This document shows positions 4,878 to 47,418 of a DNA stretch of 64,000 bases, piece by piece (positions within the stretch are counted from its first letter, which is position 1; every line of letters begins with the position of its first letter). Source of the stretch: Planctomycetota bacterium (GTDB lineage: Bacteria; Planctomycetota; Planctomycetia; Gemmatales; Gemmataceae); the NCBI GenBank assembly GCA_016191165.1, contig JACPPF010000087.1, positions 62,001-126,000 of the forward strand, written 5' to 3'. The translations under genes and the position numbers were made by a program. The notes beneath the pieces were generated by a model that saw only the letters and a program-made list of their open reading frames with translations, was not told the origin of the DNA and ran no database searches.

Positions 4878-5012
4878 CGAGGTGTATAGCTCGCGTGAGG
4901 CGGATTCGCCGCCAGGCCTTTGTCCTGCGGACCTTGCTCCTCGACCGCTGGGTAAAGGGGCACGGGGTAATAGCCGTACCGGGCTCGCAAGTGCGTTTGG
5001 CGGTCGGGCACC

Positions 5013-5921
5013 TTAGCAGACGGCAAGCGGAGAATCCACGGGTTTTGCCAGGCGAACCGGAGCTTTCAAGCAAGGGGCCGTCGGGTGCAAGTTGACAAGC
5101 GATTGCCAGTTGCCTGCATGGTCGAGAAAGAGAGACGCGAAGAGCGGATCGGAATCCGTGACGAAGGTATCGAGTGGTGCGGCGTACACGAGGCGGCGCG
5201 AGGGCGTTCGTGCAATCTCGGACGCCAGCGCCAGAATGTGATAGGCGCGGGAAATCGACTGAGTGAGAAAAACGACGCGGAATCTCGGCCGCTCCCATTT
5301 CTTCCCTGCGGCGAGCCATTGTGAAAGCAACATCTCTTGGTAGCGTTCATAGGTCGTGAGTTTCTGGCGGATGCTATTTGTGGCGTTGGCATCGACCGAG
5401 GCCATGCTGTTGTCGATTTCAAAGGCGAGATTGAACAAGCGTCTCGCCGCGGCCAGTCGGAAAAAACAATCGGGCTGCACCTGCTTGTCGCCGGCCGTGA
5501 ACGCCAGTTCGTTTTCACGAATGAATCGCTCGATTGTCACGCGGCGTGCGGAACATGCCCGGAATGTCTCGACGATCGCTTCCGCGAGGCGAAACGTATG
5601 CACAACCAGAGACGGCGACACCTCGGCAAAGAACGCCCGCGACGGGCGTGGCGCCTCAATGCCGCACGTCATGTCGAACCCGAGCGGAGTCAGCTTGTAA
5701 TAGTTCTGCAGTCCCCCGCCGGCCTGGGCCATGGGCCAGAAACGGACGGCACCGGCTCCGCACAGCGATTGCAGGCGCTCCCGGAGTCGCCGTTCGTTGA
5801 TAAATGGTTCACCCTCAAAGGCGCTGCTGGCTCGGAATAGCAGTGCCGTGGTCGCGGGCGTCCAGCTCAGGAGGCGCAGCAGCGAGACATCGCGCGGTGA
5901 CAGGTTCACGAGGGTGGACAT
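5013..5921 (-). CDS. replication-relaxation family protein
   Basis: 302 residues. The N-terminal 90 residues resemble a winged helix (SPRDVSLLRLLSWTP...) and the centre has the FALAFEID/YERYQ-type segments seen in replication-relaxation (Replic_Relax) proteins of mobile elements, which are linked to plasmid mobilisation. It directly precedes the VirD4-like ATPase on the same strand. A second, diverged member lies at 31674-32582, also paired with a VirD4-like ATPase. The initiating ATG at 5921 has no strong ribosome-binding site. It is divergent from the primase gene at 5970, so the 48-bp gap must hold both promoters. Confidence 0.7.
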   Translation of the reverse strand: MSTLVNLSPRDVSLLRLLSWTPATTALLFRASSAFEGEPFINERRLRERLQSLCGAGAVRFWPMAQAGGGLQNYYKLTPLGFDMTCGIEAPRPSRAFFAEVSPSLVVHTFRLAEAIVETFRACSARRVTIERFIRENELAFTAGDKQVQPDCFFRLAAARRLFNLAFEIDNSMASVDANATNSIRQKLTTYERYQEMLLSQWLAAGKKWERPRFRVVFLTQSISRAYHILALASEIARTPSRRLVYAAPLDTFVTDSDPLFASLFLDHAGNWQSLVNLHPTAPCLKAPVRLAKPVDSPLAVC

Positions 5922-5969
5922 GGAACGGAACGTAGAATATCATCGGTCCCTTTTTCTTCCCACCTTCGC

Positions 5970-7175
5970 ATGAACAAGCAGTATCAGAGCGTCGATGACG
6001 CTCAGGCGCAGACGACGCTCCCGGAGGCCGCGGCGAAATGCAGCGTCGTCCTCGAAGTCCACGGCAGCGGCCGCCAGATCCGGTTGGACTGCCCGTTCAG
6101 CTGCCCCGGCGATCACGCCGGCAAGCGTGAACTCTCCGTCGATACGGGAAATCCGCAGAAGGTGTTCGCCTGTCACGCGTATCAATGCCAGATGCGCGGC
6201 AACCTCCTCACGTTAATGCACGGCTGGCTCACGGGCACGCGACCCACTGGTGACAAACTCAAGGGCGAAGAATTTAAGCGGGTGCGAGGCGTTCTCCTGG
6301 GCGACTCCCCTTCTCCGGCGGGCGGACCAGTCCCGTCCTCCGTTGCCAAATCCGCGGAATTGAAAACGTTGCCGGCACGCAATGTCCCGCTCGCTCAGAG
6401 TGAGAACGAGAAGGCACGCGAACTCGTGACGCTCGACGAGAAATTCTTGCGAGACGTGGCCCACATGCCGCCGACGGCCGCGAGCTATGTCCGTCGGCAT
6501 GTCTGCCTGACGACGGCGATGATGGAGAAATGGAGGGTGGGCGTCCTGCCGCAGGATGGCGGCCCGGACAAGCGGGGCTGGTCCCTTCGCGGACAGGTCC
6601 TGTACCCGATCCTCGGCGAAGACGGCAAGCTTCTCGCGTGGGCGGCTCGCGATCCGCAGTTCGAGACGAAGGAGCAAGCTTTCAATGCCTTGCGGCCCGA
6701 CGAACGCGCGAAGGAAAAGAAACCCGCGAAGCACCGGTTCCCCGTGGATTTTCACCGCGGCCAGGAACTGTTCGGACAGCACGCGGGCCGGCTCGTTGAG
6801 CCAGGTTTCCGCGAGGTCATCGCCGAGTGCGGCATCCTCGTGGTCGAGGGCTTTAACGATGTCCTCGGACTGGACGGTATCGGCGTGCCGGCCGTGGCGA
6901 TCATGTCGAACAAGATCACCGAGCAGCAGGTGAGCAAGATCGAGCGGTTCGCGAAAAACCTCGGCGGCGGGAAAGTAACGCTCCTGTTCGATAACGACGA
7001 CGCCGGCGACGACGGCGCCAAGGAATCGCTCTGGCTTCTCGGCCAACGAGGGCTAGACGTGCGTCTCGGCTGGAGCCGTGCGATGCACGGCGGAAAGTTT
7101 GCCGGCCGCCAACCGGAGAATCTCACCGGCGACGAGTGGGAGAAAGCAATCCGGCCTGGGATCGTCCGCCAATGA
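5970..7175 (+). CDS. plasmid/phage-type DNA primase (CHC2 zinc finger + Toprim)
   Basis: A 401-residue protein. Cys41, Cys45, Cys68 and Cys73 form a likely CHC2-like zinc site. The Toprim domain shows VVEGFND (291-297) and DNDDAGDDGA (341-350), the acidic residues that bind metal for primer synthesis. It is shorter than chromosomal DnaG (about 600 residues) and lacks a visible DnaB-interacting tail, as is common for element-encoded primases. It is divergent from the transfer operon and convergent with the replication initiator, so it probably serves replication or single-strand conversion of this plasmid-like unit. Confidence 0.8.
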   Translation: MNKQYQSVDDAQAQTTLPEAAAKCSVVLEVHGSGRQIRLDCPFSCPGDHAGKRELSVDTGNPQKVFACHAYQCQMRGNLLTLMHGWLTGTRPTGDKLKGEEFKRVRGVLLGDSPSPAGGPVPSSVAKSAELKTLPARNVPLAQSENEKARELVTLDEKFLRDVAHMPPTAASYVRRHVCLTTAMMEKWRVGVLPQDGGPDKRGWSLRGQVLYPILGEDGKLLAWAARDPQFETKEQAFNALRPDERAKEKKPAKHRFPVDFHRGQELFGQHAGRLVEPGFREVIAECGILVVEGFNDVLGLDGIGVPAVAIMSNKITEQQVSKIERFAKNLGGGKVTLLFDNDDAGDDGAKESLWLLGQRGLDVRLGWSRAMHGGKFAGRQPENLTGDEWEKAIRPGIVRQ

Positions 7176-31673: not shown

Positions 31674-32582
31674 TCACGGCTTCACGAACGGGCTTCGGAG
31701 AATGGGACGAGCATCGCCCGCGACAGTTTTCCAAATGGGGGCGGAAAGAAGACGCTCCGGTTTCATGTCATGCAGGACTGCCAGGCGGACGTGCTCGGCG
31801 CCCTGTAGGTTCTTGATCGCCTCGCGGATGTTGTGAAGGCGTTCTTCGGATTGCGTCACGAAAAACACGCGCACGGCGGGGCGGTCCACGTCGGGCCAGT
31901 GCTTCCGGTAGACGGCGGTCGCCAGGAGTGCGTGGAAACCGGGGATTTTTCCGGCGACCTGTGTCAGAGTTTCCGTCGAGCGATCGTATTCCCAATATAC
32001 GAGTAGGGCGGCTTCGCCCTGGCCGCTTGGATGCGGGATGCGAAGGCAGCACGATGCGTCCGGCCAGCAGGACGCGTAACCGCCATCGGGCGTCAGCAGC
32101 TTCTCGCACAGGATGAATCGCTCGGAAAACTTCGCTTCGAAGTGAACGTTGGGGACCGTGTCATATTCCCCGATCCAGCGTGGCTTCTGAAGTCGTTGCA
32201 GGCCGCAGGCGTCGTTGACGGTGAGGCGAAGCTTCGCAACCCCAAGGCGGTGCATCACGGTCTCTGGCCTCAGCTCCTTGTTTGAGAAGTGTAAATCGCT
32301 ACGACCGGTCATCTCCTGAAGAAGCTCTGCTCCTCGTTCTGTGAGTCGAAAGAGACGGCGCGGCCTGCCGCTTCGTTCCATCGCGAAGGAAACCGACACG
32401 GAAATCGGGAGGAGAATATCGTGTGCGCAGAAAAGCCGAAGGCGACGAAGGCAGGCTTTCCCCGAATGATCGGCCGGGAAGTGCCGCTCCCAGAGCGTTT
32501 CAACGTCGAGGAGCCCGACCTCGCCGATTTCGGACAGGACTGATACGTCACGCGAGTTCACCCGAATTGCTTTGATCGTCAT
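31674..32582 (-). CDS. replication-relaxation family protein (second)
   Basis: 302 residues with GAGGAGG before the ATG. An N-terminal winged helix (SRDVSVLSEIGEVGLLDVETLW..., about 10-100) and a nuclease-like C-terminal half (LLVYWEYDRSTET, VFFVTQS) match the Replic_Relax pattern. It has the same length as the copy at 5013-5921 but is strongly diverged. It is the last gene of the nine-gene minus-strand operon and follows a VirD4-like ATPase by 10 bp, as expected for a mobilisation module. Confidence 0.7.
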   Translation of the reverse strand: MTIKAIRVNSRDVSVLSEIGEVGLLDVETLWERHFPADHSGKACLRRLRLFCAHDILLPISVSVSFAMERSGRPRRLFRLTERGAELLQEMTGRSDLHFSNKELRPETVMHRLGVAKLRLTVNDACGLQRLQKPRWIGEYDTVPNVHFEAKFSERFILCEKLLTPDGGYASCWPDASCCLRIPHPSGQGEAALLVYWEYDRSTETLTQVAGKIPGFHALLATAVYRKHWPDVDRPAVRVFFVTQSEERLHNIREAIKNLQGAEHVRLAVLHDMKPERLLSAPIWKTVAGDARPILRSPFVKP

Positions 32583-32592
32583 GGAAGCCTCC

Positions 32593-34485
32593 TCATATCG
32601 CGAGCGGGGAGCGTGGATCGTCGTCCGGCTTGTCTTCCTCGGCGACGTTAGGAGCCGGGAGAATGCGTGCTTGCCGTTGCCGTTCGATCAGGAGCGCCGA
32701 TAGGTGCCGGGCAAGCGATTGCAGAAACTGTACGCGTTCAGCTTGGATCGACGCCGGCGAGCCGTATTCGGGGCGGGCGAGGACGGTTTCCGTGAGTGCC
32801 TGCAGTTTCTTCCGTCCGAACTTCGGCGTGCGGAGAAACGGCTGCTTTGGCAGCGGGAAGGCGACGCGCATCGTCCCCTTGCCGGCGATGTAGAGAAACG
32901 CCGTGCCGATGGGGAAGCCGGCGATGGCGCTCGCGGCCTGGCTGTATTGCTCTTCGGTCGTGAAGAACTGCACGCTAGTGACGATGTCGCGGACGACAAT
33001 GCGGGGCACGAGCGTTTGCTTAAAAGTCCGGCTGCCGCCGCGGCTGTTGGTTCTCGCCCAGTTCGCCGTGGTTGTATGCGTTTGGCCTTGAGCCGCCGAC
33101 GCGCTGGAACTTGTGCCGCTGGTGTCCGCCCGCGCCTCGCCGACGGTCCGGCGTAGCGTTTCTTCATCGCGTGTCTGCGTCCGCGTCGTGCCGTGGTCGT
33201 CGCGGCGGCCCTGCGTCTCGGTCGTTGTCGCGGTGGTGCCATTCGCCTCGGCCCCGCCCTGCTGGTCGCCTTGCTGCCAGTTTTCGGCCGTGTCTTCGAG
33301 AAGCACGATGTCGTGGCCGTCTTGAAACTGCATCGGCTGCCGCTGGACGTGCTTCACCTTGGTCGGCGACAACTCCGGCAGCTTCACGAGCTTGCCGAAG
33401 TAGGTCGCATCGACTTCGTTCTGATGCCGGAAGAGGATATGCACGCGGCAGGCACCGGTGAGGGCATTCAGCAGCTTATCTTGCGTGCCATCCGGAAAGA
33501 ACTGCGTGCCAGCGTGGGCGCAGCAGAAATGCAGACGGAATTTCCGGACCTGGGTGACGCTTTCCCGGATCAGATTTGCCGACGCCGCAAAGATGGGAAG
33601 CTCGTCGACGAACACGCCGAATGGCCGACGCTGTCCGCGCGGGGTGTTGTAGGCGGCGAAGAGAAATTCGGAGAGCCAGACGTTGGCGAGAATCTCGCGA
33701 TCTTCGTCGCGAAGAACGCCGCCGGGCTCCAAGTTAATAATGACGATGGCGCCTTCCTGAATCAAACGCTGCGCATCGAGGACCGCTCCCAGTTTGCCTA
33801 ACGCCAGTTCGATGAACGGGTTTTTCAGCAGCCCCAGGAAGCGGTTCTTCGTCGAGGCGATGAGGTCTTCGCGGTCAATGAAGCGCATCTCGCCAAGTTC
33901 CTGGAGTTCGAGCTGCGCGATCGGATCGGGGGCGAGCTGCGTGAGCGGGTAATAGATCGGGCTACGGGGATCGAAGAAGTGCCGAACGTCGGGGATCGTG
34001 AGTTGCGCGAGGCCAAGGGTTTCGAGATACCAACTCGTGAACTTGAAGAGCACGGGTTTGGAATTGAAGTCCTTTTCGCCCCAGCAATGAAGCAGGATTT
34101 TACCGCAGTGGCCGGCCTTCTTGAGGACGCGAGCGCGCCAGGTGAGGGGATCAAGTCCTTCCGGATTGACGGCAAGGGGATTCACGCCGGCGATGATGCC
34201 GCCCTGGGCGGGATGGACGATGACGACGGGACGACGGTGACACTCTGGCAAATTGGCGCAGAATGCCTCCATGTCGTTTGCAGAATCGCCGTGCGGATCA
34301 ATCAGGAGGAAACCTGGCCCGTCCGGTTTCATGGCAAGTCGCTGCATGAGAAGCTGCTGCACGCACGACTTGCCGGTGCCGGAATCTCCACTGACCTGGA
34401 TGCCTCCGGCGCTTTCGTCAAAGAGCACGTCGAGATTCAGAAAGGCCGACTGGCTCATCCGCGAATTGATATCTGAACGTTGCAC
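32593..34485 (-). CDS. VirD4/TraG-like transfer ATPase (second)
   Basis: 630 residues from a GTG at 34485 (GGAGG upstream). Walker A SGDSGTGKS is at about residues 32-40 and the Walker B-like LLIDPHGDS at about 60-68, followed by a second acidic motif GVFVDELPIF (about 285-295). The region around 430-500 is a Gln/Thr/Arg-rich low-complexity linker. It lacks the long N-terminal domain of the ATPase at 2583-4877, so the two are not recent copies. It probably pumps DNA, working with the replication-relaxation protein encoded downstream; it is unusual in being transcribed with ubiquitin-system-like genes. Confidence 0.75.
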   Translation of the reverse strand: MQRSDINSRMSQSAFLNLDVLFDESAGGIQVSGDSGTGKSCVQQLLMQRLAMKPDGPGFLLIDPHGDSANDMEAFCANLPECHRRPVVIVHPAQGGIIAGVNPLAVNPEGLDPLTWRARVLKKAGHCGKILLHCWGEKDFNSKPVLFKFTSWYLETLGLAQLTIPDVRHFFDPRSPIYYPLTQLAPDPIAQLELQELGEMRFIDREDLIASTKNRFLGLLKNPFIELALGKLGAVLDAQRLIQEGAIVIINLEPGGVLRDEDREILANVWLSEFLFAAYNTPRGQRRPFGVFVDELPIFAASANLIRESVTQVRKFRLHFCCAHAGTQFFPDGTQDKLLNALTGACRVHILFRHQNEVDATYFGKLVKLPELSPTKVKHVQRQPMQFQDGHDIVLLEDTAENWQQGDQQGGAEANGTTATTTETQGRRDDHGTTRTQTRDEETLRRTVGEARADTSGTSSSASAAQGQTHTTTANWARTNSRGGSRTFKQTLVPRIVVRDIVTSVQFFTTEEQYSQAASAIAGFPIGTAFLYIAGKGTMRVAFPLPKQPFLRTPKFGRKKLQALTETVLARPEYGSPASIQAERVQFLQSLARHLSALLIERQRQARILPAPNVAEEDKPDDDPRSPLAI

Positions 34486-34491
34486 AACTGC

Positions 34492-35139
34492 TTATCCTCC
34501 AACTGCTTGCCCCGGCTCTTGCTGGCCCAGGTTTTCGAGAGCTTCGCGGAAACGGGTTTTCTCGGCTTCGAGAAGCTGCTCGCGAGTTTCGGCATCGAGA
34601 CCGGGGACAGCGCGAAGAGCGTCCATGCGCCGCTGGTGTTCTCGTTGCAGCTGGACCAAACCTGCGGAATATGACACGGGCTGTTGGGTATTTGACGGCA
34701 AATGTCCTTCCGCCTCGTCGCGGATGTAGTCGGCTTCGAACGTATCGACACCCAGAGCTTGGACAAGCGTTTGCAGCGATTCGAGCAGCACGGCGGGATC
34801 GCCTCCGTCCGCAAGTCGGTCGGCGAAACGCCGCACGAGGCGAGGTCGGAATCGACGGAACTGCCGCTGACGGAAGGCCAAGGGAACATCCTGCGCCTGG
34901 GCGGCCCAGGATGCGGCGCGGCGAAAATCAGGCGCCTCGGCAAGCTTGAACAGTGCGACCTGGAGCGCACGCGCTTTCTGGTTGAGTCGGCGAAGGTTTT
35001 CACGTTGCCTCAGTTCGATCGGGGAGAGCAGGTGCTGAGTGACGCCCCTGCCAACAGGGGTTGCCACCATCCACCGGATTATCCAGTAGCCGGCATACGC
35101 CACGGCGCCCAGGGTTGCCAATCCGCAAAGTATCTCCAT
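34492..35139 (-). CDS. membrane-anchored helical protein of the transfer operon
   Basis: 215 residues. Residues 3-20 (ILCGLATLGAVAYAGYWII) form one N-terminal membrane anchor; the rest is helical, rich in Arg, Gln and Glu and probably coiled coil in its last third. GAGGTGG precedes the start. It lies between the E1-like gene (12-bp gap) and the VirD4-like ATPase (6-bp gap), so it could tether the ATPase or its substrate to the membrane. No family recognised. Confidence 0.65.
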   Translation of the reverse strand: MEILCGLATLGAVAYAGYWIIRWMVATPVGRGVTQHLLSPIELRQRENLRRLNQKARALQVALFKLAEAPDFRRAASWAAQAQDVPLAFRQRQFRRFRPRLVRRFADRLADGGDPAVLLESLQTLVQALGVDTFEADYIRDEAEGHLPSNTQQPVSYSAGLVQLQREHQRRMDALRAVPGLDAETREQLLEAEKTRFREALENLGQQEPGQAVGG

Positions 35140-35151
35140 GTTCCACCTCTT

Positions 35152-36057
35152 TTACACGATGGCACCGTCCGGTATTGGAATGATGCCAGTTTTGGGAGTC
35201 CGGCCTCGGTACTTCACGCAATCCGGACACGGCGGCTCGCCGCCGTCCGGGTCGCGGCGGACGATGGTGTTCCAGGCGAAGTAAGCGTCGCACGTCTCGG
35301 CGATGCCGAGCTGCTCCCGCACAATGTCATGGTCACGCAGGGTCCACGAGGGATCGATCTTCACCTGGAGAAAATTACGGTCGCCGAGTTGTTCGATGAG
35401 CCGGCCATAGCGATTGTCGGCTCCGCGCGTGAGCTGCCCGAGCGAAACCATGCCGACGATGCTGTCAAGAAAGTGGATCGTAAAGATATCCGCGCCGTCG
35501 CTCGGCGGATCAAGGCGGATGCCTTGCGTCTGGGCTTGTTCATGGGCGCCATACCGCGATGCACAAATGCAGCGAAAGCACGGTCGCAAATCCTCATGCC
35601 AGAAGATGACTTCTCCGGCTCGGCCGCCGCGATATAGGCCCACCCAGATCGCCGGGATTCCTAAGCGCAGTGCGACTTGGTTGCCGAAAGCTTGTGCCTT
35701 AAACGAATCCGTGCAGAACAGCAGCAAGTTACAATCGCCGAAGTGGGCGTCGATTGCCTCCTCGGAGAGTGTTGTGAAATCCACCGGCAACCCGAGGACC
35801 TCGGCCTCCCGGTTGATGCTCGCGACCAGCGCGGCGGCGGCTTCGACCTTGAAGTGGCCGACGTGGGCGGCCATGTGTCCTTGCCGCGCAAGATTTGCGG
35901 ATTCGAGCATGTCAGGATCCGCGAGGACGAAATGCTGAATGCCGCAGCGGGCAAGGTCGCAAATGAGTCCCATGCTGCCACCAGCTCCAATGACGCCCAC
36001 TTTGGCGTTCAGGGTGCGTTCGATGTCGAGCGAGCTTTTCAGTCGATTGAGATTCAT
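35152..36057 (-). CDS. E1/ThiF-like adenylating enzyme
   Basis: 301 residues. The Rossmann loop VGVIGAGGSMG (20-30), the DPD strand end and the LARQGH segment (ATP/Arg-finger region) are those of the ThiF/MoeB/E1 superfamily, which adenylates the C-terminus of a ubiquitin-like protein or peptide. Two cysteine pairs, CFRC (about 171-174) and CPDC (about 276-279), probably bind zinc. GAGGAG precedes the start. Neighbouring JAMM and E2-like genes indicate a ubiquitin-like conjugation pathway rather than sulfur transfer for thiamine or molybdopterin. Confidence 0.8.
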   Translation of the reverse strand: MNLNRLKSSLDIERTLNAKVGVIGAGGSMGLICDLARCGIQHFVLADPDMLESANLARQGHMAAHVGHFKVEAAAALVASINREAEVLGLPVDFTTLSEEAIDAHFGDCNLLLFCTDSFKAQAFGNQVALRLGIPAIWVGLYRGGRAGEVIFWHEDLRPCFRCICASRYGAHEQAQTQGIRLDPPSDGADIFTIHFLDSIVGMVSLGQLTRGADNRYGRLIEQLGDRNFLQVKIDPSWTLRDHDIVREQLGIAETCDAYFAWNTIVRRDPDGGEPPCPDCVKYRGRTPKTGIIPIPDGAIV

Positions 36058-36119: not shown

Positions 36120-36758
36120 TCAGAACAGGATTAACTGCGCGGCTTGCACGACACGTTGCTCGTGCGGACGGACGACGTAGGGAATCAGAATTCCGTCACA
36201 GAAGATGGGCAAAAGGAACTCCTTGAGATCCTTGTTTTTTTCGTTCGCGAAGGATTTTCGAACATACGCAAGGTCGCCGCTGCTTGGTTGTCCGCAGCCT
36301 GGGGGATGGGAATGAACCAGGCCTTTGCAATCGAGTCCGCATTCGAGCATCCTCTTAAGCACGCGATTGAGGCCTGCGGCGTCCAGAGTGAAGGACGCTG
36401 CGGTTGCCTTTCCGTTCTTATCGGGAACATAGTGCGTTACGACGGGTGACCCTTTGAGTCCGATGAGTGCGCCGCCGGCTTCGTGCGGGACTGATGCGAG
36501 GTGCCGCATGATGTCGAGGTACGGCGCCTGTAGCATTCGAATGGACGGAAGCGGACGAGACCACGTTGCGACCTTCGGAGGATCGTCACACTTCTGGTCG
36601 CTCGTGCTGGCGTGGGGGATTCGTGGGTTGTCGTCGGGCAGCTCGTCGTCCGGCGAAAAGAGGTCGTAGGGCGGCAGGCCAAATGGAAATTCGGGGTCGA
36701 ACGGGAAGGCGCCGCACTGAAGTAATTCAGGGAATTGGCGGAAAAGGAACGGGGCCAT
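36120..36758 (-). CDS. JAMM/MPN+ (JAB) metalloprotease
   Basis: 212 residues from the ATG at 36758 (CGGAG upstream). The full JAMM zinc signature is visible: Glu93 in HEAGGALIG, then His149, His151, Ser159 and Asp162 in HSHPPGCGQPSSGD. These residues bind zinc and activate water to cut isopeptide or peptide bonds after ubiquitin-like proteins. A Pro/Asp-rich N-terminal region of about 60 residues precedes the domain. Together with the E1-like gene downstream and the E2-like gene upstream it suggests reversible tagging of proteins, or processing of a precursor. Confidence 0.85.
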   Translation of the reverse strand: MAPFLFRQFPELLQCGAFPFDPEFPFGLPPYDLFSPDDELPDDNPRIPHASTSDQKCDDPPKVATWSRPLPSIRMLQAPYLDIMRHLASVPHEAGGALIGLKGSPVVTHYVPDKNGKATAASFTLDAAGLNRVLKRMLECGLDCKGLVHSHPPGCGQPSSGDLAYVRKSFANEKNKDLKEFLLPIFCDGILIPYVVRPHEQRVVQAAQLILF

Positions 36759-36829
36759 TTGAATGCTCCGAGTGATGTGGTTGGTCGAAAGGGGAGAGAC
36801 CATCTCTCCCCTTGGGCTTGGCGGGTTGG

Positions 36830-36931
36830 CTACCGATGGAGCGTGCCATCATCGATTTCCTCGATGCCGTGCAGCGTTCCGTCGTCGATCTCTTCGATGC
36901 CGAAGAGAACACCGGGCAGGATTTCGGTCAT
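36830..36931 (-). CDS. 33-residue peptide with a tandem repeat
   Basis: The ATG at 36931 follows an ideal ribosome-binding site (AAGGAGGTGAT, 6 nt before). The peptide starts MTEILPGVLF and then repeats GIEEIDDGTLH twice, ending HR. The two DNA copies differ at several third positions, so selection on the peptide rather than a fresh duplication is likely. It lies between the E2-like and JAMM genes. It could be a substrate tag, a modified-peptide precursor or an assembly factor. Confidence 0.6.
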   Translation of the reverse strand: MTEILPGVLFGIEEIDDGTLHGIEEIDDGTLHR

Positions 36932-36979
36932 GGTTATCACCTCCTTTCGCGATGTTGAAGGCTCGGGGCGAGCGATGGT

Positions 36980-37273
36980 TTACACATCAACGCTGCCGCC
37001 GGAGTTGTCAAAGCGGCCCGTGCGGATGTACCGGGAGTACCGCTTCATCCAGAGCGAAGCGATGGCTTTGGCGCGATCGAGGGTCCTGGGCTCGTACCCT
37101 GGCTTCACGCAGATTTCTCCGCTGTCGTAGCGGTGATGGGTCTGAGAGTCGTTGCCATAGGGATCGCCGGGGCACCCAACGGCAACGATCTTGAGGTAAC
37201 TTCCGACCGGCCGATATTCGATCGTGTACTCGTCGGCGCCGTCGATGCGGTAGCGTTTCGTAACAGTTGCCAT
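36980..37273 (-). CDS. E2-like (ubiquitin-conjugating-fold) protein
   Basis: 97 residues. The C-terminal half HHRYDSGEICVKPGYEPRTLDRAKAIASLWMKRYSRYIRTGRF follows the bacterial E2-like pattern: a His-rich turn, a G-x-I-C strand with candidate catalytic Cys55, a helix and a Trp/Tyr-rich end with TGRF. The N-terminal half supplies strands (YTIEYRPVGSYLKIVAVG). AAAGGA precedes the start. Assignment is by pattern and context with E1-like and JAMM genes; structure prediction would settle it. Confidence 0.55.
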   Translation of the reverse strand: MATVTKRYRIDGADEYTIEYRPVGSYLKIVAVGCPGDPYGNDSQTHHRYDSGEICVKPGYEPRTLDRAKAIASLWMKRYSRYIRTGRFDNSGGSVDV

Positions 37274-37312: not shown

Positions 37313-37537
37313 CTACTCGGCAACTTTGCCGTTGCCATTCTGTTTCTCGTGCTGGCGGTGACGGAAGCGAAGGAGCTTCGTCAGTTCGGGAATGCAGATG
37401 ACGGCGTGCTGGATCGTCCCGTCGGTCGTCGAGATCTCCACAGCCTCGCCGGTCTTTTGCGAATACTCGCATTCGGCGTCGCTGTGAAACGCATGGATGA
37501 GAATGTCCTTCGCCTCGGTTGCGACTTGCTGTGTCAT
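37313..37537 (-). CDS. small hypothetical protein of the ubiquitin-like operon
   Basis: 74 residues, GAGGAG upstream. IQHAVICIPELTKLLRFRH in the second half may form a strand and a helix; the tail is Gly/Asn/Lys-rich and lacks a di-glycine end. By position it could be the ubiquitin-like modifier or an adaptor, but the sequence alone does not show a beta-grasp fold. Confidence 0.5.
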   Translation of the reverse strand: MTQQVATEAKDILIHAFHSDAECEYSQKTGEAVEISTTDGTIQHAVICIPELTKLLRFRHRQHEKQNGNGKVAE

Positions 37538-37573: not shown

Positions 37574-37738
37574 TTAAGAAGGACAAACAACTTCCCGTTG
37601 CACTACAGTTGCCGCGGAAATTTCCGGGAAATTATCATCGCGTACTTCCTGCGTCGCATCCTCGGGATCATCGGGCACTGGGCCGCCGTCGGTTCCCCAT
37701 TGGTCCAGGGAATATCGATGAAATTCGGAATCGGTCAT
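37574..37738 (-). CDS. 54-residue acidic protein, first gene of the operon
   Basis: The ATG at 37738 follows GAAGGAG. The product MTDSEFHRYSLDQWGTDGG... is acidic and probably unstructured. It is 36 bp upstream of the next gene on the same strand and appears to open the nine-gene operon. No family recognised. Good ribosome-binding site and clean spacing support it despite the short length. Confidence 0.5.
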   Translation of the reverse strand: MTDSEFHRYSLDQWGTDGGPVPDDPEDATQEVRDDNFPEISAATVVQREVVCPS

Positions 37739-38226: not shown

Positions 38227-41200
38227 TCATGAATCAATCTCTTCAATTGCCCATGCATATCCTATGCGTCGCGATTCTTCAATCGCTTTTTGCAAGACAA
38301 CGGTCCCATTCGGATCGTCTCGTTCAGCCATCAATCGGCCACGCGCAATCTCTGTGTCAATGAGAAGATGTTGATAATTGCCGGTGCGGGCGTAACGGTC
38401 CGACGTAGCAAGGGCACCGTAAGCCTCTTGCGCGTCACCCGCGTTCGCTCCGGGCAATGCGGCGACAAGAGCGCATGCTTGTGCTTTCAACAATTGGATG
38501 ACGGACCGATGATAAAACGTGTTGTATCGTCGCTCCGGAAAATCTTTATAGGTTTGTTCAACTGCCTGGCTGAATTCGTGAGGGGTCATTTCACCGCTGA
38601 TGGTTTTTCTGCGAACAAGGAAAAGCTTGGCGGTTATCACAGAGGTACGCCAATCGTAATGAGTTCCATGCTTGTCCGGTGCGGGTTCTTGAGAGGACAT
38701 GACATCTAGGTACTTGGACATGTCCTCGAATGAAGTTGCATGATGGATCATTGACAACCATTTGCAATATAAGACTCTGATGGAAAGGAGTGGTGCCAAT
38801 GCCGATGCGGCGTCGAAGTCGATCTGAGCACCCACCCAATCGCCGGCCAAATCCTTCGCATACGCTCGAAGTCCAAGACAGTCAGCCTGTTGCTGAGGGG
38901 TGCCAGAAAGCGGAAATGCCAGATCTGCAAATTCTGTCGCACGTTGAATCTCCCCGGTATACAGTTCCAGCATGGCCGTACCGAATTGTGCTAAGAACAT
39001 CGCAGGTCTAAGACGTATCACCGACAGACGATCGCACGCCCGATATGCGACCTGTTTTGCGTCCGCTGTTCGTCCGACATGCGCTAAGCAAGTTGCCGTC
39101 GCCAAGTCAAAGAGTGATGACGTGAGAGGGTCATCGAAAATGGGCCCAGCCGCAAAACTGTGTCCGCGATAGAAATGGCTTGCAATAGAAAGACGCAAAT
39201 CCCACTCTTGCAAGCGAGTGACCATATAAAACGACGTCGGCAAATGAATTTGCTTGGTTGGCTGGTACAAAAAACTCAGTGGTCCCCACCCAAACCGGCC
39301 CATTAATTTTGCAAGAAAAATGCACACAGACTCTCCGAGTGGCAGGTGAGTAAGAAAGCCCCAGGTGCGCATCTGTGTTGTCAGCCACGCTTCGCCGGAA
39401 AGATGGTCTGGCTCGTCCAACCTAGCAGTCAAAACTGCCAAAGCATGCCAAATCAAATCACCCGCGCACCCGTGTCCAATGGCTTCGGCAATGGTCCGCG
39501 CTGCGGCCTTCTGATTTTCGATTTGGATTTTGAACTCTATCGTGGAATCTTCAAGCACCGACAGCCTCTCTTTGCATTGCGCGAGAATCGCGTAGAAGAG
39601 CTGACGGTTTGCAATCTTCCAGGCGTCAGATTTACCTTCCTGAATTCGCTTTCTGAAAAAGTTCCTCACAATAGGATGGACATCGAGGATTCGCGAAACG
39701 CGTTCCTTCGAAACGCGTTCCTCGTACTCTGACAGAAGCCCGTACTGACGCAGCCTTCCGATGGCTTCATTCAGTTCTAGGCAAATGACCTCTTTCGGTG
39801 ATGAACAGATGCCTTCGATCGGGATTTCCATTAGGGGATCCAGTTCGGGAAGTGCAATCGGATGGTCGAAGACTGCAAGGGCTCGCAAGACGAACAATTC
39901 TGTGTAGCGTTTGTCGGATTCGAGCGCTTGTTCATACGCCGCGATGACCCGCTCGGCATGGCGGCCAGGTCCTGTCGTCGGAGATATAGGGATCTCGCGT
40001 CGGGGATCGCCTTCAAGGTAGGTGACTAGGTATTTGCCTGCAAGTATCAACCCGAGTGGATAGCCTTCGTATTCTTTGATTAACGACAGGATGGAAGGTC
40101 GGTCATCCGCATCAAGCAAATCTGATTGAACACCGATGTCATTCAATAACGCCCGTGCCGCGTCTTCCAACAGCTCCTCCAGGGCAAAGGTGGATACGCC
40201 TCGTCGATCGGTCGTCAAGTCCGACGGCTTAAAGCGAGTCGTCAAAATGCAAATGCCCTGGAAATCTCGCTCAAGCAGACGCATTAGAAAATCAACGAAA
40301 GCTGCATCTCGAAAATGAGTGCCGCGGTTTGTTTCCGGCGGGTTTTGAATTACTTCCGTCCCGTCAATTACGAGGACCGTCGGTTGTCTTGTTACAAGTG
40401 CGGCAAGCCTTTCCGATTGCTCATGCAATGTTCCGCCGGTTGGATCGGGATCGCCGAAGTGGGCCAGTGCGGATCGAAAGAAAAAACTCGAATCAATGCC
40501 TCCAGACTCTTTTTGGCCCTGTCGATAAAACGAATAGCCGAAGCCACAGACCATGTTTTTCCAACCGGACTCTTTTAGGTCATTCACCCACCTCTTCACT
40601 AATGCAGTCTTGCCGAAGCCACCGAAGGCATGGATTACGACAATCTTGTTCTCGCCTTCTGCCAAGGATTGATTCAAGAATTGCAGTTCATCGACTCTCC
40701 CGAAAAGTGGCGACTCGGTCGCAACACGATCGAGGAAACTGAAATTGAAGGCCTTGCCCAAGTCAATCGGATCGCCTGCCTGCGCGGAAGTCTCTTGATT
40801 GACACCCACCCCTGCGACCGAGACCGGTTTCGTGGCAGCTCTGTGATCCGTCGGAGTGCACTCGGCGATGTTCGGCGGTGTCGCATGAGGCTCTGCACGG
40901 CTCTCTGATCCTGTCCACCGCGCGTTCAATGCAGTTGCAAGTGATTTCAGGCTTGCTGGCTCGTTCGAGATACAGTTACCGTCCCAAAAAAGGTCGATCT
41001 CATTTGGTGAGAGCTGATTGTAATCAAATAGAACGTAGTACCCGCCATTCCTTTTTCCTTTCTTAATGCACGTGTGAATGAAGCGGCGCTTGGTACTTTT
41101 TTCCCTCCCGAATAGTTCCTCGTGCCAATTGTTCGGTTTCTCCAATGAGTTATGCAACGAAGCCGCGGGACTTGCGTTTCCACCAGTCAGAGCCACAGGT

Positions 41201-41397
41201 TGGTCGTCCTTGTTAACAACAATTGCTGCCCTGGCGGCTACTGCAAGGAGGCCGACAGCCTGTATGGCCTGTCGATCCCGAATAGTCTTTCGGTCGCTGG
41301 AGCGAACTTTGTCAATGGCGTCGTGCGTGAGCGTCGTCGCCACCAGCAAAGGATCCGCCTTACCTTCAAACCACAGCGAAAAATTTCTATTTTGCAT
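38227..41397 (-). CDS. STAND/NLR-type NTPase, candidate antiphage sensor
   Basis: 1056 residues. A central NB-ARC/NACHT-like module has Walker A AFGGFGKTA (257-265), Walker B VLVIDGTE (341-348), a sensor-like ICILTTRFK (382-390) and a GYPLGL motif typical of STAND proteins. The region 224-240 (FLDRVATESPLFGRVDEL) matches the usual lead-in. Residues 1-200 form an N-terminal domain I do not recognise, ending in a low-complexity linker (165-210). The last 400 residues are helical, TPR-like repeats that would sense a ligand. Such architectures act in bacterial abortive-infection immunity (Avs/NLR-related), but also in regulation. Stand-alone gene beside mobile-element genes. Confidence 0.7.
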   Translation of the reverse strand: MQNRNFSLWFEGKADPLLVATTLTHDAIDKVRSSDRKTIRDRQAIQAVGLLAVAARAAIVVNKDDQPVALTGGNASPAASLHNSLEKPNNWHEELFGREKSTKRRFIHTCIKKGKRNGGYYVLFDYNQLSPNEIDLFWDGNCISNEPASLKSLATALNARWTGSESRAEPHATPPNIAECTPTDHRAATKPVSVAGVGVNQETSAQAGDPIDLGKAFNFSFLDRVATESPLFGRVDELQFLNQSLAEGENKIVVIHAFGGFGKTALVKRWVNDLKESGWKNMVCGFGYSFYRQGQKESGGIDSSFFFRSALAHFGDPDPTGGTLHEQSERLAALVTRQPTVLVIDGTEVIQNPPETNRGTHFRDAAFVDFLMRLLERDFQGICILTTRFKPSDLTTDRRGVSTFALEELLEDAARALLNDIGVQSDLLDADDRPSILSLIKEYEGYPLGLILAGKYLVTYLEGDPRREIPISPTTGPGRHAERVIAAYEQALESDKRYTELFVLRALAVFDHPIALPELDPLMEIPIEGICSSPKEVICLELNEAIGRLRQYGLLSEYEERVSKERVSRILDVHPIVRNFFRKRIQEGKSDAWKIANRQLFYAILAQCKERLSVLEDSTIEFKIQIENQKAAARTIAEAIGHGCAGDLIWHALAVLTARLDEPDHLSGEAWLTTQMRTWGFLTHLPLGESVCIFLAKLMGRFGWGPLSFLYQPTKQIHLPTSFYMVTRLQEWDLRLSIASHFYRGHSFAAGPIFDDPLTSSLFDLATATCLAHVGRTADAKQVAYRACDRLSVIRLRPAMFLAQFGTAMLELYTGEIQRATEFADLAFPLSGTPQQQADCLGLRAYAKDLAGDWVGAQIDFDAASALAPLLSIRVLYCKWLSMIHHATSFEDMSKYLDVMSSQEPAPDKHGTHYDWRTSVITAKLFLVRRKTISGEMTPHEFSQAVEQTYKDFPERRYNTFYHRSVIQLLKAQACALVAALPGANAGDAQEAYGALATSDRYARTGNYQHLLIDTEIARGRLMAERDDPNGTVVLQKAIEESRRIGYAWAIEEIDS

Positions 41398-42129: not shown

Positions 42130-42492
42130 ATGGCTACTCGTCACTTACGACGTTCCGAAGATCATGAGTTGTCGGCCATTTGGCCGGTCGCCTGTACGAC
42201 ACGTTGGTGCTCGATGAACGCCCAGTGCGGTAAGGAATTCGACAAAACTGACGTTCGGCGCCTACAGGTCGGGCTCCTCCTGGAGGCTGTCATCGATAAG
42301 ATCCGGGGCACGAAGTGCCGGCGGACGATTCGAACGTTGTGGCTCAATCAATGGGACAAGAAGGAGACTGCCAAGGACCTTGGTGTCTCCGAAAAGGCCA
42401 TCTCGGTGGCCCTATGTAGGTTCAAGAAAGCGGCTGCTGGAATCGTGGCGGCTCCGGAATTCCAAGAGGTTTACGAGCGTATTTTCTGCTAA
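42130..42492 (+). CDS. sigma-70 region 4-like HTH protein
   Basis: 120 residues from the ATG at 42130 (GAGGAAT upstream). Residues 75-105 (TIRTLWLNQWDKKETAKDLGVSEKAISVALCRFKKA) form a helix-turn-helix of the sigma region 4 / small-terminase type; a CTTRWCSMNAQC segment precedes it. Region 2 is missing, so it is more likely a regulator than a full sigma factor. Its 3' end overlaps the convergent serine recombinase by 4 bp; it may control that integrase. Confidence 0.6.
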   Translation: MATRHLRRSEDHELSAIWPVACTTRWCSMNAQCGKEFDKTDVRRLQVGLLLEAVIDKIRGTKCRRTIRTLWLNQWDKKETAKDLGVSEKAISVALCRFKKAAAGIVAAPEFQEVYERIFC

Positions 42493-44300
42493 CCCGGCGC
42501 ATTCAAAGCGTTGCTCGTTTCTTCATCCTGGCCCTGAGACATCTTGGGGCCTTTTGTTTTTGCCGGCATTGGCGGCGGTTCTGAACACGTTCGACATACT
42601 TCCTCGACATACTTCTCGATGATTTTGGCAGACCCCTTGTTCCGAAAATCCACCGGCCCTTTGTATCGCATCGACCGTACAATCGTTCGCGATTCCTTTC
42701 GTCGCGACGCTTCGCAGCCGTTGAACGCAAAGTGCGCACGATGATGGACGATGACATAGTCGCGAGTTGTGGCCTGACCGTGGAAATGGACCTGCACGAA
42801 CGCCAACCGTTTGGTACCGTCGGCAATGAAGAGGCAATAGATATTCGACACAAGGCGGCGGATCGCCGCGCGAAGCCGGAGACGCGCGTCATCCTGGTCC
42901 GGAGCCTGGTTCAACAGGTCGATGAGAGAGTGGCACGTTGCCCATGCGGACATGAGCGGGGTTGCCGCCTGTCGCCTTGCTTCGTCGAGTTCTTTCGTGA
43001 TGGCAACCTTCTCTGCCTCCAAGGTCTTCGCTGCGGTCGCGAGCGCATCGATGTCGCCCTTGTCGAGGAGCGCCGCCGATATTTTCGTCAAACGGCCGTC
43101 GATGCCCGCAAGTCGGCCCGTGAGAGCCAGCACGGCGTCGACCGTCTTGGGACCCCTGGGCACGAGGGAGTCCACGTCGATTTCCTTGAGTTGGGAAAGG
43201 ATGGCACGTTCAAACGGGACTGACGGGAAGCTCGTCATCTTCGCACCTTCAATGCCCTGATAGGCGCGATAGGACGCCAGTATTTTTCCGCTGCTCTTCT
43301 TGCCCCTGTCCAGTTGGAAGAATGTTCCTCCGTCCCGCGCGTCACGCAATAGATTGGCAAACAAATTGATCCCGCCTGCGGCCGGCCGTCCCGGTTTATT
43401 GTGCCGATTGGCGAGTGCGGCTCTCGCCGCGTACCACTCTTTCTCTGACACGATCACCGGGTAGTAATCGGGGATGAGTTCCCCGGTAGGGTGACGTTTT
43501 TGCCCGTGTGCGATCGTGTGGGGCTGGTATTCGCCGACAACGGCCCGATTTGAAAGAATCTTGGCGATGTATGATCTGGCCCAGTAATCGGCACGACCGA
43601 TGGCCGGGATCTTTTCGGCGTTGAGTTGTTTGGCAATTCTCCCGAGTCCGTACCCGTTGATCGCCATTTCGTAGATTCGGCGCACAGCGGCCGCCGCTGG
43701 CTCGTTGACAACGAAGGCACCGTCCTTCACGTGAAGCCATCCGGGCGTCCGCTTCGTCAAGACTTCTCCGTCACGCCCCGCCCTCTCCCGCTTGGCAGAC
43801 CAGGCTCGGCCGACCCGCTCCGACTTCATGCGGGACTCGCTATGCCCGCGACTCAATTCCATGATCGCCATCATGAGCGTCATCGGCTCGACGGCTTCGT
43901 CATAGATCGTCTCGACGGGCAGAAGCTGCACGATGCGGATGCCGTTGTCGATCAAGTTGAGGAGCAAGGTGAGTGCCGGCCGGATATGTTCGCGCGTGAG
44001 CCGATCCAGCGATTCGACGATAAGATAGGAGCCGCGGGCGATGCGGCCGGCGTGGACGAGTTCGAGGAACGTTGCCAGGGCATGGCGGTCTGGGTTCTCC
44101 CGGTGCTTGCCGGAAAAGCCGCTGATGCCCTCATCGCGTAGCGTCAACGTAGTGTTGAGCATGACGCCGTTGCGGTCGAGCCATTGATCCCGCAATTCGG
44201 TCTGGCGCCGAACGGAGTCGCCTTTTGATTGCTCGGGTGAGCTGAACCGGAGATACGAATATGCCGTGGCCGGGGTGCTGTTCTTGGTTTTCATCGCCAT
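42489..44300 (-). CDS. large serine recombinase 1
   Basis: 603 residues. The N-terminal resolvase domain has YLRFSSPEQ with the catalytic Ser20, then [11 protein letters not shown], as in large serine integrases. A recombinase domain ([42 protein letters not shown]) follows at about 190-240, with a zinc-ribbon-like region and a long helical C-terminus (about 370-470). The 5' end is about 50 bp from the left edge of the comM fragment, so it is probably the integrase of the element to the left of 44353. Confidence 0.85.
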
Positions 44301-44353
44301 CGCTCCCTGTAATGTGGACCGTGTTGCTCCTCCTCGCGCTACACAATTTTATC

Positions 44354-44776
44354 CACAACATGTTGATGATCGGCACGCCCGGTTCGGGCAAGACGATGCT
44401 GACGCGGCGAATGCCGACGATTCTCCCGCCGTTGACGCCCAGCGAAAGCCTGGAGACGACGCGCATCTACAGTGCGATGGGCCGGCTCGCGCCGGGCGAG
44501 GCGCTGCTGGCGACTCGGCCTTTCCGCTCGCCGCATCATACCATCAGCGACGCCGGCATGGTCGGCGGCGGCACGATCCCGACGCCCGGCGAGATTTCCC
44601 TCGCCCATCATGGCGTCCTGTTCCTGGACGAGCTGCCCGAATTCAATCGCCGCAGTCTCGAAGTGCTTCGGCAACCTCTCGAAGAGGGCAAAGTGACGAT
44701 CTCGCGCGCGCTGAACTCGTCCACCTTCCCGGCGAGCTTCGTGCTGGTGGCCGCGATGAACCCGTGCCCGTGCGGC
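44354..44776 (+). pseudogene. comM/yifB (Mg-chelatase-like AAA+ ATPase), central fragment
   Basis: 141 codons match the ATPase core of ComM/YifB, from [14 protein letters not shown] (Walker A) through [19 protein letters not shown] and [11 protein letters not shown] (Walker B) to [11 protein letters not shown]. Both ends stop abruptly: the left in the GGHN region before Walker A, the right directly after NPCPCG, where family members continue with an aromatic residue. Each broken edge adjoins a serine recombinase gene, so the gene appears cut twice by integration. ComM aids branch migration in transformation and is a known insertion target for genomic islands. Confidence 0.85.
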
Positions 44777-46937
44777 TAACGCTGATTTTCATTTCGTCTG
44801 GAAGTACCCGTTTCGCAGCATCCGTGTCCTTGGGCACGAACCTGTAGCTGACTACCTCCGTCCGACGCTTTTTCTTGGGGCCGGTCAGCTTTACGTCGAA
44901 GACGGGGTAGACCCGTTCCACGAAGCTGGCGAGCAGTAGGCCGATTTGGGTTTTGTCCGCCGCAAGGATCGTTTCTCGAATCGAGTTGAGTTGTTCGAGG
45001 GTTGCCCGTGCCTTTTGTGTAATCGGGACAAGTTGCGGTTCGATCTCGGCTCGGCGTTTGTCTAGTTCCTCAGCCCGCTTGTCGAGGCGTTCTGCCATGC
45101 TCTGGTTCTTTCTTCTTTGAACGACGATCTCTGAGGCAATCCCGTCTAGTTCATCGTTGATGGCAGTGAGTTCGGCCTTCAGAGCGGCGACGGTGGTGGT
45201 GAACTCCTGGTCGTAGAAGTCGAAGGCCCACGAAAAGACCTTGGTAGCGTCCGGCCTTTCGAGGATACCGTCTTTGAATTCGATCTTCTTGACTGTGAAT
45301 TCGGTTTCGACGTGTAGCTTCTGAGCAAGGAAGCCGTAGATGGCGTGCGAGGCGGGGTTCTCCGGGTGGTGGCCTTTGCCGAGTACAGCCCAAATGATGC
45401 TGAGGATGGTCTTGCCGAGTTCGGACTTCTTCAGCCATTCGGCTTCCGTCAAGGAGTTCAAGTCACCCCGGCTAATCGTGTCGATGCGGTCGGCAACTCT
45501 CTTCAACATTTCTTCTATGGCGGCGTCGAGAGTTTCCCACCGTACCGTGTTGGCGTTGCACTTCGCCCGGATGGTCTTGCGGTAAGTCCCGCAAACAAAA
45601 CAGCGGTAACGCTTCGCTTTGCCCTTCGTTTTCTGAAGTGTTTTGGTTCCCGGCATGAATGAACCGAGAACCATCGGGGCGTCACAGTCAGGGCAGAAGA
45701 GTTTGCCGTTCAGCGGGTGGGTTGCCTTGTCACGGGTCCGTCGCTTGCCAAAGCTGTCATTGACCTGGGGGCGGTTGTCGAGTTTCTGCTTCACACTGGC
45801 GAAAAGATCGGGCTTGATGATCGGGGCGAACACGGGGCGTTTCGGGAAGATGTACTGGTCCTCCGTCTTCTTCATGACAAGCGTTTCGTCCTTTTTCCGC
45901 TTCACCGGCATCGGCATCTTATCCAAGGTGATGCGGTATTCACCGACTCCCACCTTCCCCCACGCCGGAAGGCCGACGTAGGCCGAATTTCTCAGGATGG
46001 TTTCGACACCGTGGTAGCCGAACGGCTTGTCATAGTGGCCGAGACGCTGATTCCAAAGGCTTTCGGAGATGGCTCCGAACTCAAGCCCCGAATGATACAT
46101 CTCGAACATCTGGCGAACGGCTTCGAGCCTGTTGACCTCGACGGATGGTTCGTACCTGTATCCCGTGGTCTTCTTGTCACGGGGCGGCATGTTGTTCTGG
46201 ATGACTTCCCGTTCGACTTCGAGCCGGGCGTTGACGATGAATCCGGCATTATCACGGTCTACACAGCTTTTGTCTGTGTAATAGATGACTCGATATTCGT
46301 GAGGCTTCTTGTACCGGGTCCGCACGACACGCCAAAGCGGACGGGTCAGGTCATTCAGCGGGTAAAGTACCAAGTCGATTCCAAACGGATTGTTCCCGGT
46401 CGTCGCCCACCCTGCTTCCGCCATCTGAATCATCTTCTGGATGTTTTTGTCAGCCATACCGGAGACGTAGCGGGTACTCCCTTCAGCGGCAGCGGCGACA
46501 CGCCAAAAATCACCGTCTTCCAGCCCCGTGACGTTGAGTTGATCCACGACGGCGTACAGTCCAACGTCGTACTCTCGGAGTTTGCTGCGGAAGACGAAAA
46601 CTTCGTCCTTGTCACGGATGCCCCAGCGGTCGAAGTTGGAAATCACGATCCAGTCGATGGAACCCGCCTCGACGAGTTGCATCATGTCGTCAAAGCGATA
46701 CCGCTTCCGACCCGTGTTTTGCTTTCTCTTGTCCCAATCCCGAAAGAAGCTGGCAGATTCGTGCCGCCTGATCTTGTCCTCGAAGCGGAGTTCGTCGGGA
46801 ATGTGTAGATCGTGGGAATCAAGCCAACGCTGGACCGGCTCCCAATGGTGTTCCAGGCGTTGCTTGGGCGTGCTAACTCGACCGAAATAGGCGAGGCGGT
46901 CGCCGGACTGTGGACAGTTCTTGATGCGTGTTTCCAT
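44643..46937 (-). CDS. large serine recombinase 2
   Basis: 764 residues from the ATG at 46937 (GGGAG upstream). The resolvase domain shows [10 protein letters not shown] with the catalytic Ser, then [12 protein letters not shown]. The recombinase domain includes [21 protein letters not shown], and a zinc ribbon ([11 protein letters not shown] ... CFVCGTYRK) and coiled coil follow, as in large serine integrases. The last 45 or so residues (after KISVS) are read from the antisense strand of the comM fragment, so the present C-terminus is formed by the integration junction at about 44776. It is probably the integrase of the element to the right. Confidence 0.85.
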
Positions 46938-47418
46938 ACTCGATCTCCCTGTCACGCACAAATGGCGTGAGTCGTGGATTTCTGGTAATCCTTCGCAGGG
47001 AGTCGTGAAAAGAGTAGATTCGACGGCATGAAGCCTGAAGCCACACGTTCAGACAATCCCCTGCCCGCACCATCGCAGTGCGGTTGATTACGCAGGAAAT
47101 TGCCTGAAGGGGGTCGGGCCGTCGTCCCTAGAGGCAGAACCGGGAAGCTCGCAAAGCGGCCACAAAAAAGAATTTCCCGATCCGTCCCATTCTAGTGCGG
47201 AGACGTGTGCTTGTAAACCTGCGTTGCCATCTTCCTTGTTCCGATTGCGTTCTGAATGCCGCATGGTTGCCCTGCTCGCAGCGGGTTTCTGGTGATACCT
47301 CGTGCCGAGAAAGAGGGTCGAATCTGAGCAGTTTCGTCCCAGGAGTTCAGTGGTACAAAAAAAGGCGGGCAAGGGGTTGTTGACCCCGGCCTGTGACCGG
47401 AGGTTGAAAGATTCTTGC
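46938..47418. other. non-coding stretch at the start of the right element
   Basis: Holds the serine recombinase promoter (minus). The long minus-strand open frame here (47088-47576) has no coding character. No further gene was seen. Confidence 0.45.

Follow-up and report, generated by a model that had tools for sequence, protein, structure and literature searches.

The peptide gene and its operon

The window, the whole stretch of 64,000 nucleotides that was analyzed, carries on its minus strand a series of genes in the order p54, p74, the E2-like protein p97, a short peptide, a JAMM peptidase, an E1-like enzyme, p215, a TraG/HerA-like ATPase, and a replication-relaxation protein. The features of this operon are as follows:

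37574–37738 (−), p54, a 54-aa frame with a good Shine-Dalgarno sequence
37313–37537 (−), p74, a conserved 74-aa protein of type A operons with an invariant Cys23
36980–37273 (−), p97, a 97-aa E2-like protein with a predicted minimal UBC fold, Cys55, and His47
36936–36947 (−), Shine-Dalgarno sequence AAAGGAGGTGAT, a 12-nt anti-Shine-Dalgarno match located 4 nt before the ATG of the peptide gene
36830–36931 (−), peptide gene, 33 aa, MTEILPGVLF-GIEEIDDGTLH-GIEEIDDGTLH-R, with a motif kept in 18 of 18 E2-containing loci
36869–36901 (−), motif copy 1 (GIEEIDDGTLH)
36836–36868 (−), motif copy 2 (GIEEIDDGTLH), with seven synonymous and no non-synonymous differences from copy 1
36120–36803 (−), JAMM/JAB peptidase (Prok-JAB, E = 4e-8)
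35152–36057 (−), E1-like/ThiF adenylating enzyme, 301 aa (ThiF, E = 3e-25)
34492–35139 (−), p215, a partner conserved in all type A loci
32593–34485 (−), TraG/HerA-like ATPase, a partner conserved in all type A loci
31674–32582 (−), replication-relaxation protein (PF13814), a partner conserved in type A loci

The peptide gene runs from the ATG at 36931 to the stop codon at 36832–36830 of the minus strand. The first-pass annotation had placed a 33-residue frame at these coordinates, leaving out the strand, and had described it as lying between the E2-like and JAMM genes and as containing GIEEIDDGTLH twice in a row; the gene order agrees, and the two copies are exact and directly adjacent. Its ribosome-binding site had been called the best in the neighborhood and is so, with an anti-Shine-Dalgarno match of 12 nt versus 4–6 nt for the other operon genes. 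The 12-mer is the sole occurrence of its kind in the window (0.02 expected), and of the 1826 ATGs on both strands, only that of the peptide gene is preceded by a match longer than 7 nt.

A degenerate DNA pattern for the motif matches twice in the window versus never in 100 shuffles. Seven of 33 nt distinguish the two copies, all of them in the third codon position and all synonymous. About 22% of random changes in these codons would be synonymous, which places the chance of seven synonymous changes out of seven at ~3e-5 if the changes were neutral. Enough time has therefore passed since the duplication for the copies to drift, while the peptide has been held constant.

The E1-like enzyme retains its GxGG, N55-x2-RQ, K70, D117, and CxxC...CxxC elements, and its ThiF match begins at residue 11 of 301. 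The domain scores best to MoeB, UBA5, and ThiF, and its relatives in the PDB include MccB and PaaA. No conserved cysteine is found in the E1 alignment outside of the zinc-type CxxC pairs, and a classical E1 thioester is thus not evident. The JAMM motif, H164-x-H166-x7-S174-x2-D177, is intact and the Glu is present; the true start of this protein may be the internal ATG at 36758. Assignment of the operon to the PRTRC cassettes was rejected, since the PRTRC ThiF family TIGR03736 scores 18 bits where 145 is the cut-off.

No Pfam or NCBIfam family scores above its cut-off for p97, p74, or the peptide. The AlphaFold model of p97, built from 18 natural sequences, has a mean pLDDT of 89 and a pTM of 0.81. 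Foldseek alone gives no significant E2 match for this model. When VIA-align is run over the Foldseek candidates, the E2 from a CBASS CdnG-E2 complex ranks first (8hsb; rmsd 3.1, 91 of 97 residues aligned) with a Z of 7.5, which is below 8, where chance similarity is possible; the matches that follow are mainly UFC1 and UBE2 enzymes. The protein models as a probable UBC/E2 fold and is termed E2-like here. Its cysteine (Cys55 in the window) is present in all p97 copies except one duplicate, and in type A operons a conserved histidine precedes this cysteine by eight residues, the spacing at which classical E2s have the asparagine of the HPN motif. Tandem p97/E2-like genes occur in two loci (L061:4083–4403 and 4674–5042; L062:6287–6622 and 5913–6284, minus strand), and the exceptional copy in L061 reads VSV instead of VCV, as an inactive E2 partner might.

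The protein p74, found only in type A operons, is predicted to adopt a beta-beta-beta-alpha arrangement (pLDDT 75). Its reading as a hidden ubiquitin fold is not supported by this topology or by any ubiquitin-fold match. No ubiquitin-fold protein was found in the operon, and with p74 not predicted to be one, the operon is without an evident folded modifier. The frame p54 has no relative in the other loci and may represent an additional small gene in this operon.

Large NB-ARC/STAND-type NTPases adjoin the operons in the window (38227–41397, minus strand) and in L058 (5743–7188), and a WD40-repeat protein adjoins that of L036 (8015–11989, minus strand); these neighbors recall bacterial conflict systems and are not conserved as orthologues. 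Farther along the window, at 42489–46961, two large serine-recombinase-like genes flank a ComM/YifB-like fragment (44261–44779, plus strand), an arrangement in the ORF list that suggests a mobile element inserted in comM.

Related operons and the conserved peptide motif

Relatives of the operon were sought with the JAMM and E1 proteins and never with the peptide, so that conservation of the peptide is an independent test. The search covered samples of 392 genomes of the phylum and 397 of the class, as well as genome contigs and 396 genomes from the phylum to which an acidobacterial MAG belongs. Among genome contigs, a single E1 protein retrieved no relative; those reported here were found with the alignment of type B E1s, the alignment of all E1s being too divergent. 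The JAMM profile matched 16 of the 397 class genomes, not all of the p97 lineage, and 2 of the 396 genomes in the acidobacterial sample. The peptide/E1/E2/JAMM system is rare. No JAMM relative was found in the plasmid collection, where the JAMM-E1 query gave only generic MoeB-like matches, or in viral contigs, where two peptide patterns gave no match and one match, the latter a stray frame.

The same E2-like gene is present at 18 loci from 15 genomes, window included, whose hosts belong to the phylum of the window (Planctomycetota-type) and to the Acidobacteria. Ten loci (the window, L032–L035, and L058–L062) constitute type A, with separate JAMM and E1 genes followed by the p215, TraG-like, and replication-relaxation genes. 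In the other eight, type B (L036, L037, L063–L066, L074, and L102), the JAMM is fused to the E1. Types A and B separate with full support in an E1 tree of 13 rows. Two related genomes, G389 and G299, each contain two copies of the whole type A module (L032–L035), consistent with a mobile cassette. A reverse transcriptase lies beside two of these copies (L033:2574–3659 and L035:2676–3761, with an RVT_1 match in L035), and both resemble those of diversity-generating retroelements.

The first-pass annotation had proposed looking for the small frame in related operons, and it is kept at the same place in 18 of 18 E2-like loci, a count that leaves out the truncated contigs L069 and L070. The motif is likewise kept between relatives rather than changing freely. 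The frames encode 17–63 residues, with a variable N-terminal part and a fixed C-terminal end, and they end in, or mostly within three residues of, [DE]x[LIV]xxGT[LFW]H (GGFR in one). There are one to four copies per frame of a unit of about 11 residues, with a period that is mostly 11. In 32 units from 17 loci, position 8 is Gly and position 5 is Leu, Ile, or Val without exception, and position 3 is acidic in 31. Position 11 of the C-terminal unit is His in 16 of the 17 loci and Arg in the remaining one. A stop codon directly follows the motif in seven loci, and one to three extra residues follow it in nine.

In addition to that of the window, the type A peptides are MKIVLFGIEELDGGTLHSDN, MKFVLNGIEELDSGTLHGIEELDSGTLHA, MKYVVYGIEELEDGTLHTGR, MKYVVFGIEELEDGTLHTGR, MFKHVPGVEELPDGTLH, MTRKLVVRGVEELPPGTLHRD, MTRKPVVRGVEELPAGTLHQPQ, MRRQCMGIEEIPDGTLH, and MQSVRMGIEEVDSGTLH. 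Type B peptides include MIPAWRDVVPEGTFH(GEDVVPPGTFH)x3AG, ...DKDEIPPGTFHGESSDKDEIPPGTFHVL, MVTTDAACDQIPVGGFR(GEEVLPPGGFR)x3, MRRVYDGECIPPGSFC(GGDSVPPGTFH)x2, ...(GGDAIPxGTFH)x3, and ...PDVVPVGTFH, as well as GTWY/GTWH versions with a longer, 16-residue tail in the two Bythopirellula copies; Bythopirellula polymerisocia is one carrier that is in culture. Multi-copy loci diverge between copies almost exclusively by synonymous changes, as judged from identical-peptide copies picked by the motif, with the strongest cases being the window and L033, in which all copies were used. The variable copy number, together with this nearly synonymous-only divergence, indicates that the repeat is kept at the peptide level. 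The peptide gene is real.

Across 198 related genomes, the type A motif DNA pattern has nine matches, seven of which fall in these operons; the other two lie elsewhere, at unrelated loci whose surroundings have no E1, E2, or JAMM relative. Pattern matches L103, L105, and L106 were ruled out as peptide loci, having no E1, E2, or JAMM relative. No such peptide was found in the divergent E1/JAMM loci L038, L067, L068, and L076. Of these, L076 does possess an AAA_2 ATPase along with E2-like genes, so that the p97 lineage may be the only one with the peptide. A different arrangement is visualized in a Spirochaetaceae MAG (L100:2914–5055, minus strand), where E2, JAMM, and E1 parts occupy one 714-aa ORF. 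In this ORF, VLPTGTFR precedes the E2 part and FLLRGTFR separates the E2 from the JAMM part, which gives the look of a polyprotein with the peptide motif built into it; no separate peptide is present.

A Clp-type AAA_2 ATPase of ~460 aa is the next gene after JAMM-E1 in five of the eight fused-type contigs compared, all of which extend past the 3′ end of JAMM-E1; it is missing at this place from L036, L037, and L063. These ATPases, of the Clp/Cdc48 subfamily, are located as follows:

L065:6901–8292, AAA_2 ATPase
L066:6648–8039, AAA_2 ATPase
L069:1788–3158, AAA_2 ATPase
L074:6437–7834, AAA_2 ATPase
L064:2412–3773 (−), AAA_2 ATPase

The N-terminal parts of the ATPases of L064, L069, and L074 contain [ML]PPGS, which resembles the peptide motif. 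No AAA+ unfoldase is found in the operons of type A, the lineage of the window.

Comparison with known conjugation systems

One of the closest known counterparts is type II CBASS. There, Cap2 conjugates cGAS, which has no ubiquitin fold, through its C terminus, with the JAB protease Cap3 cleaving tandem fusions of cGAS at that same C terminus (PMC10097602). E1, E2, and JAB are therefore able to use a partner without a ubiquitin fold (PMC10097602). Similar to Cap2 and Cap3, the enzymes described here are proposed to act on the C terminus of a non-ubiquitin-fold partner, and an E2 from a CBASS complex is the best structural match of p97. The differences are that the CBASS partner is a nucleotide cyclase ending in Gly or Ala rather than a peptide of 17–63 residues whose 11-residue unit ends in GT[LFW]H, and that Cap2 is an E1-E2 fusion, whereas E1 and E2 are separate genes here. 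Membership in type II CBASS was rejected on this separation and on the absence of a CD-NTase or CBASS effector among the operon genes scanned.

Among the operon types 6a–6e of Iyer, Burroughs, and Aravind, type 6e combines a polyUbl with a JAB-E1 fusion; there, two or three folded ubiquitin-like domains make up the modifier, and the E2-like domain lacks activity (PMC1779556). Type 6e resembles the present operons in the fusion of JAB to E1, in an E2-fold partner and a repeated modifier, both of them predicted in the present case, and in a frequent location on mobile elements, and differs from them in that the repeat here is an 11-residue peptide and the E2 cysteine is kept. With a repeat unit of 11 residues and no tandem ubiquitin-fold domains, the operons were not assigned to this type. 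The bacterial ubiquitin-like operons Bub and Bil (named in PMC13373217) are likewise ubiquitin-type conjugation gene sets that are partly linked to defense. Unlike the peptide here, the Bub and Bil modifiers are ubiquitin-fold proteins.

Pup modifies proteins as a small, unfolded protein and is linked to an AAA+ ATPase. The peptide modifier proposed here would share these features; Pup differs in its length of ~64 residues, its ligation by PafA rather than by E1/E2, and the lack of a JAMM. The ssrA tag of tmRNA, an 11-residue tag recognized by Clp AAA+ unfoldases, is a functional analogy only, as it is added during translation and not by enzymes. In microcin C biosynthesis, a short ribosomal peptide, MccA, is found beside an E1-like adenylating enzyme, MccB, as is the case here; that system has neither an E2 nor a JAMM, its MccB carries a peptide-binding domain at the N terminus, and the last residue of MccA is Asn. 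The E1-like enzyme of the window was not grouped with MccB, since its ThiF match begins so close to the N terminus that this domain is absent. The open-access literature searched contains no such peptide/E1/E2/JAMM system, and we place the operons with the E1-E2-JAMM kind rather than in any named system.

A proposed peptide modifier and its alternatives

The conserved linkage makes it well supported that the peptide is a substrate of the neighboring E1-like and JAMM enzymes, as sequence comparison indicates. This part of the first-pass annotation is strengthened by its recurrence in all 18 loci, whereas the parallel with MccA and MccB drawn there is weaker: the E1 has no room for the MccB-type N-terminal domain, and the operon also contains a JAMM and an E2-like protein with a conserved cysteine. 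A tag fits better. The E1-like, E2-like, and JAMM proteins probably act on a bare peptide rather than on a folded ubiquitin-like protein. The reading that we favor, with somewhat better than even confidence, is that the gene encodes a precursor from which the JAMM produces a minimal unfolded modifier, to be adenylated by the E1 and conjugated via the E2. The wider proposal, in which ubiquitin-type E1 and E2 enzymes attach an unfolded tag of ~11 residues, encoded head to tail, and a Clp-type AAA+ unfoldase acts on the tagged proteins in some operons, is more tentative and falls a little short of an even chance.

For processing, activation, transfer, conjugation, and the role of the Clp-type ATPase, we infer the following scheme. 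The JAMM would cut the head-to-tail copies apart and trim the short tail after the motif, for which deubiquitinases acting on polyubiquitin precursors serve as a model. The E1-like enzyme would then adenylate the freed C terminus, and the small E2-like protein would take the peptide on its conserved cysteine. The peptide would be joined to target proteins, from which the JAMM could also remove it. In operons with a Clp-type AAA+ ATPase, the tag would hand its targets to the unfoldase, much like the ssrA tag. The two candidates for the mature C terminus are His at motif position 11, where many frames stop, and Gly at position 8, left after removal of TLH; the latter is the sole invariant residue, and Gly is usually the one activated.

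A fixed end, a free start, a variable number of units, and linkage to E1, E2, and JAMM are what would be expected of a polyubiquitin-like precursor of which just the C-terminal tail is left. A C-terminal His speaks against a modifier, as it would be unusual for one, although Gly8 offers an alternative; known modifiers end in Gly, and the CBASS partner ends in Gly or Ala (PMC10097602). Also weighing against this reading are an E1 with no conserved cysteine beyond its CxxC pairs, the lack of a significant Foldseek match for p97 together with a Z below 8, and type A operons devoid of an AAA+ unfoldase. The peptide is not a beta-grasp protein, and thus not a classical ubiquitin-like modifier, yet it may work like one.

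The main rival, which we regard as unlikely, is a RiPP-like or microcin-C-like pathway, in which the E1 would activate the C terminus to add a small group or a crosslink, the JAMM would cut leader and follower, and the GIEEIDDGTLH core would be a secreted antibiotic or signal. The peptide does have a leader-core-follower look with tandem cores, and MccB and PaaA are among the PDB relatives of the E1, MccB acting on a short peptide. Such a pathway accounts poorly for the E2-like partner with a conserved cysteine in every locus, for an E1 without an N-terminal peptide-binding domain, and for a core that hardly changes from genus to genus, in contrast to most RiPP cores. Furthermore, no exporter was seen in a non-exhaustive examination of neighboring genes, and both the fusion of JAMM to E1 and the linkage of a Clp ATPase suggest protein handling.

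It is quite improbable that the peptide stays unmodified and is a small regulator or inhibitor, a pseudosubstrate that binds the JAMM or E1/E2 via its GT[LFW]H end while the real modifier lies elsewhere. A short linear motif with a fixed end would suit this role, and type A has in p74 another conserved small protein; however, p74 is not predicted to have a ubiquitin fold and was found only in type A, and copies joined head to tail at the same junction are more in keeping with a precursor than with an inhibitor. Similarly improbable is a sulfur carrier, whose C terminus the E1 would adenylate en route to a thiocarboxylate sulfur donor, with the tail removed by the JAMM in the way that QbsD trims QbsE. 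The affinity of the E1 domain for MoeB, UBA5, and ThiF, its lack of a conserved catalytic cysteine, and the short C-terminal tails are all compatible with this role, but sulfur carriers have a beta-grasp fold, the E2-like partner is conserved, and no sulfurtransferase or biosynthesis gene was seen in the operons examined. That the ORF is spurious or the repeat due to chance has a negligible probability; nothing but the small size of the frame speaks for it. Conservation at all 18 loci, synonymous-only divergence of the copies, and the 12-nt Shine-Dalgarno match speak against it, and the comparison of loci has already refuted it.

If the peptide is a conjugated modifier, it would be the smallest ubiquitin-like modifier known. 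It would amount to an ssrA tag added after translation, and a conjugation tag of very small size could be genetically encoded. Through the linked Clp ATPase, the path from tag to unfolding would be directly testable. The ubiquitin fold would be dispensable for E1-E2-JAMM conjugation, with a C-terminal peptide being enough, which would extend the surprise of a non-ubiquitin protein being conjugated in CBASS and would bear on the origin of ubiquitin systems.
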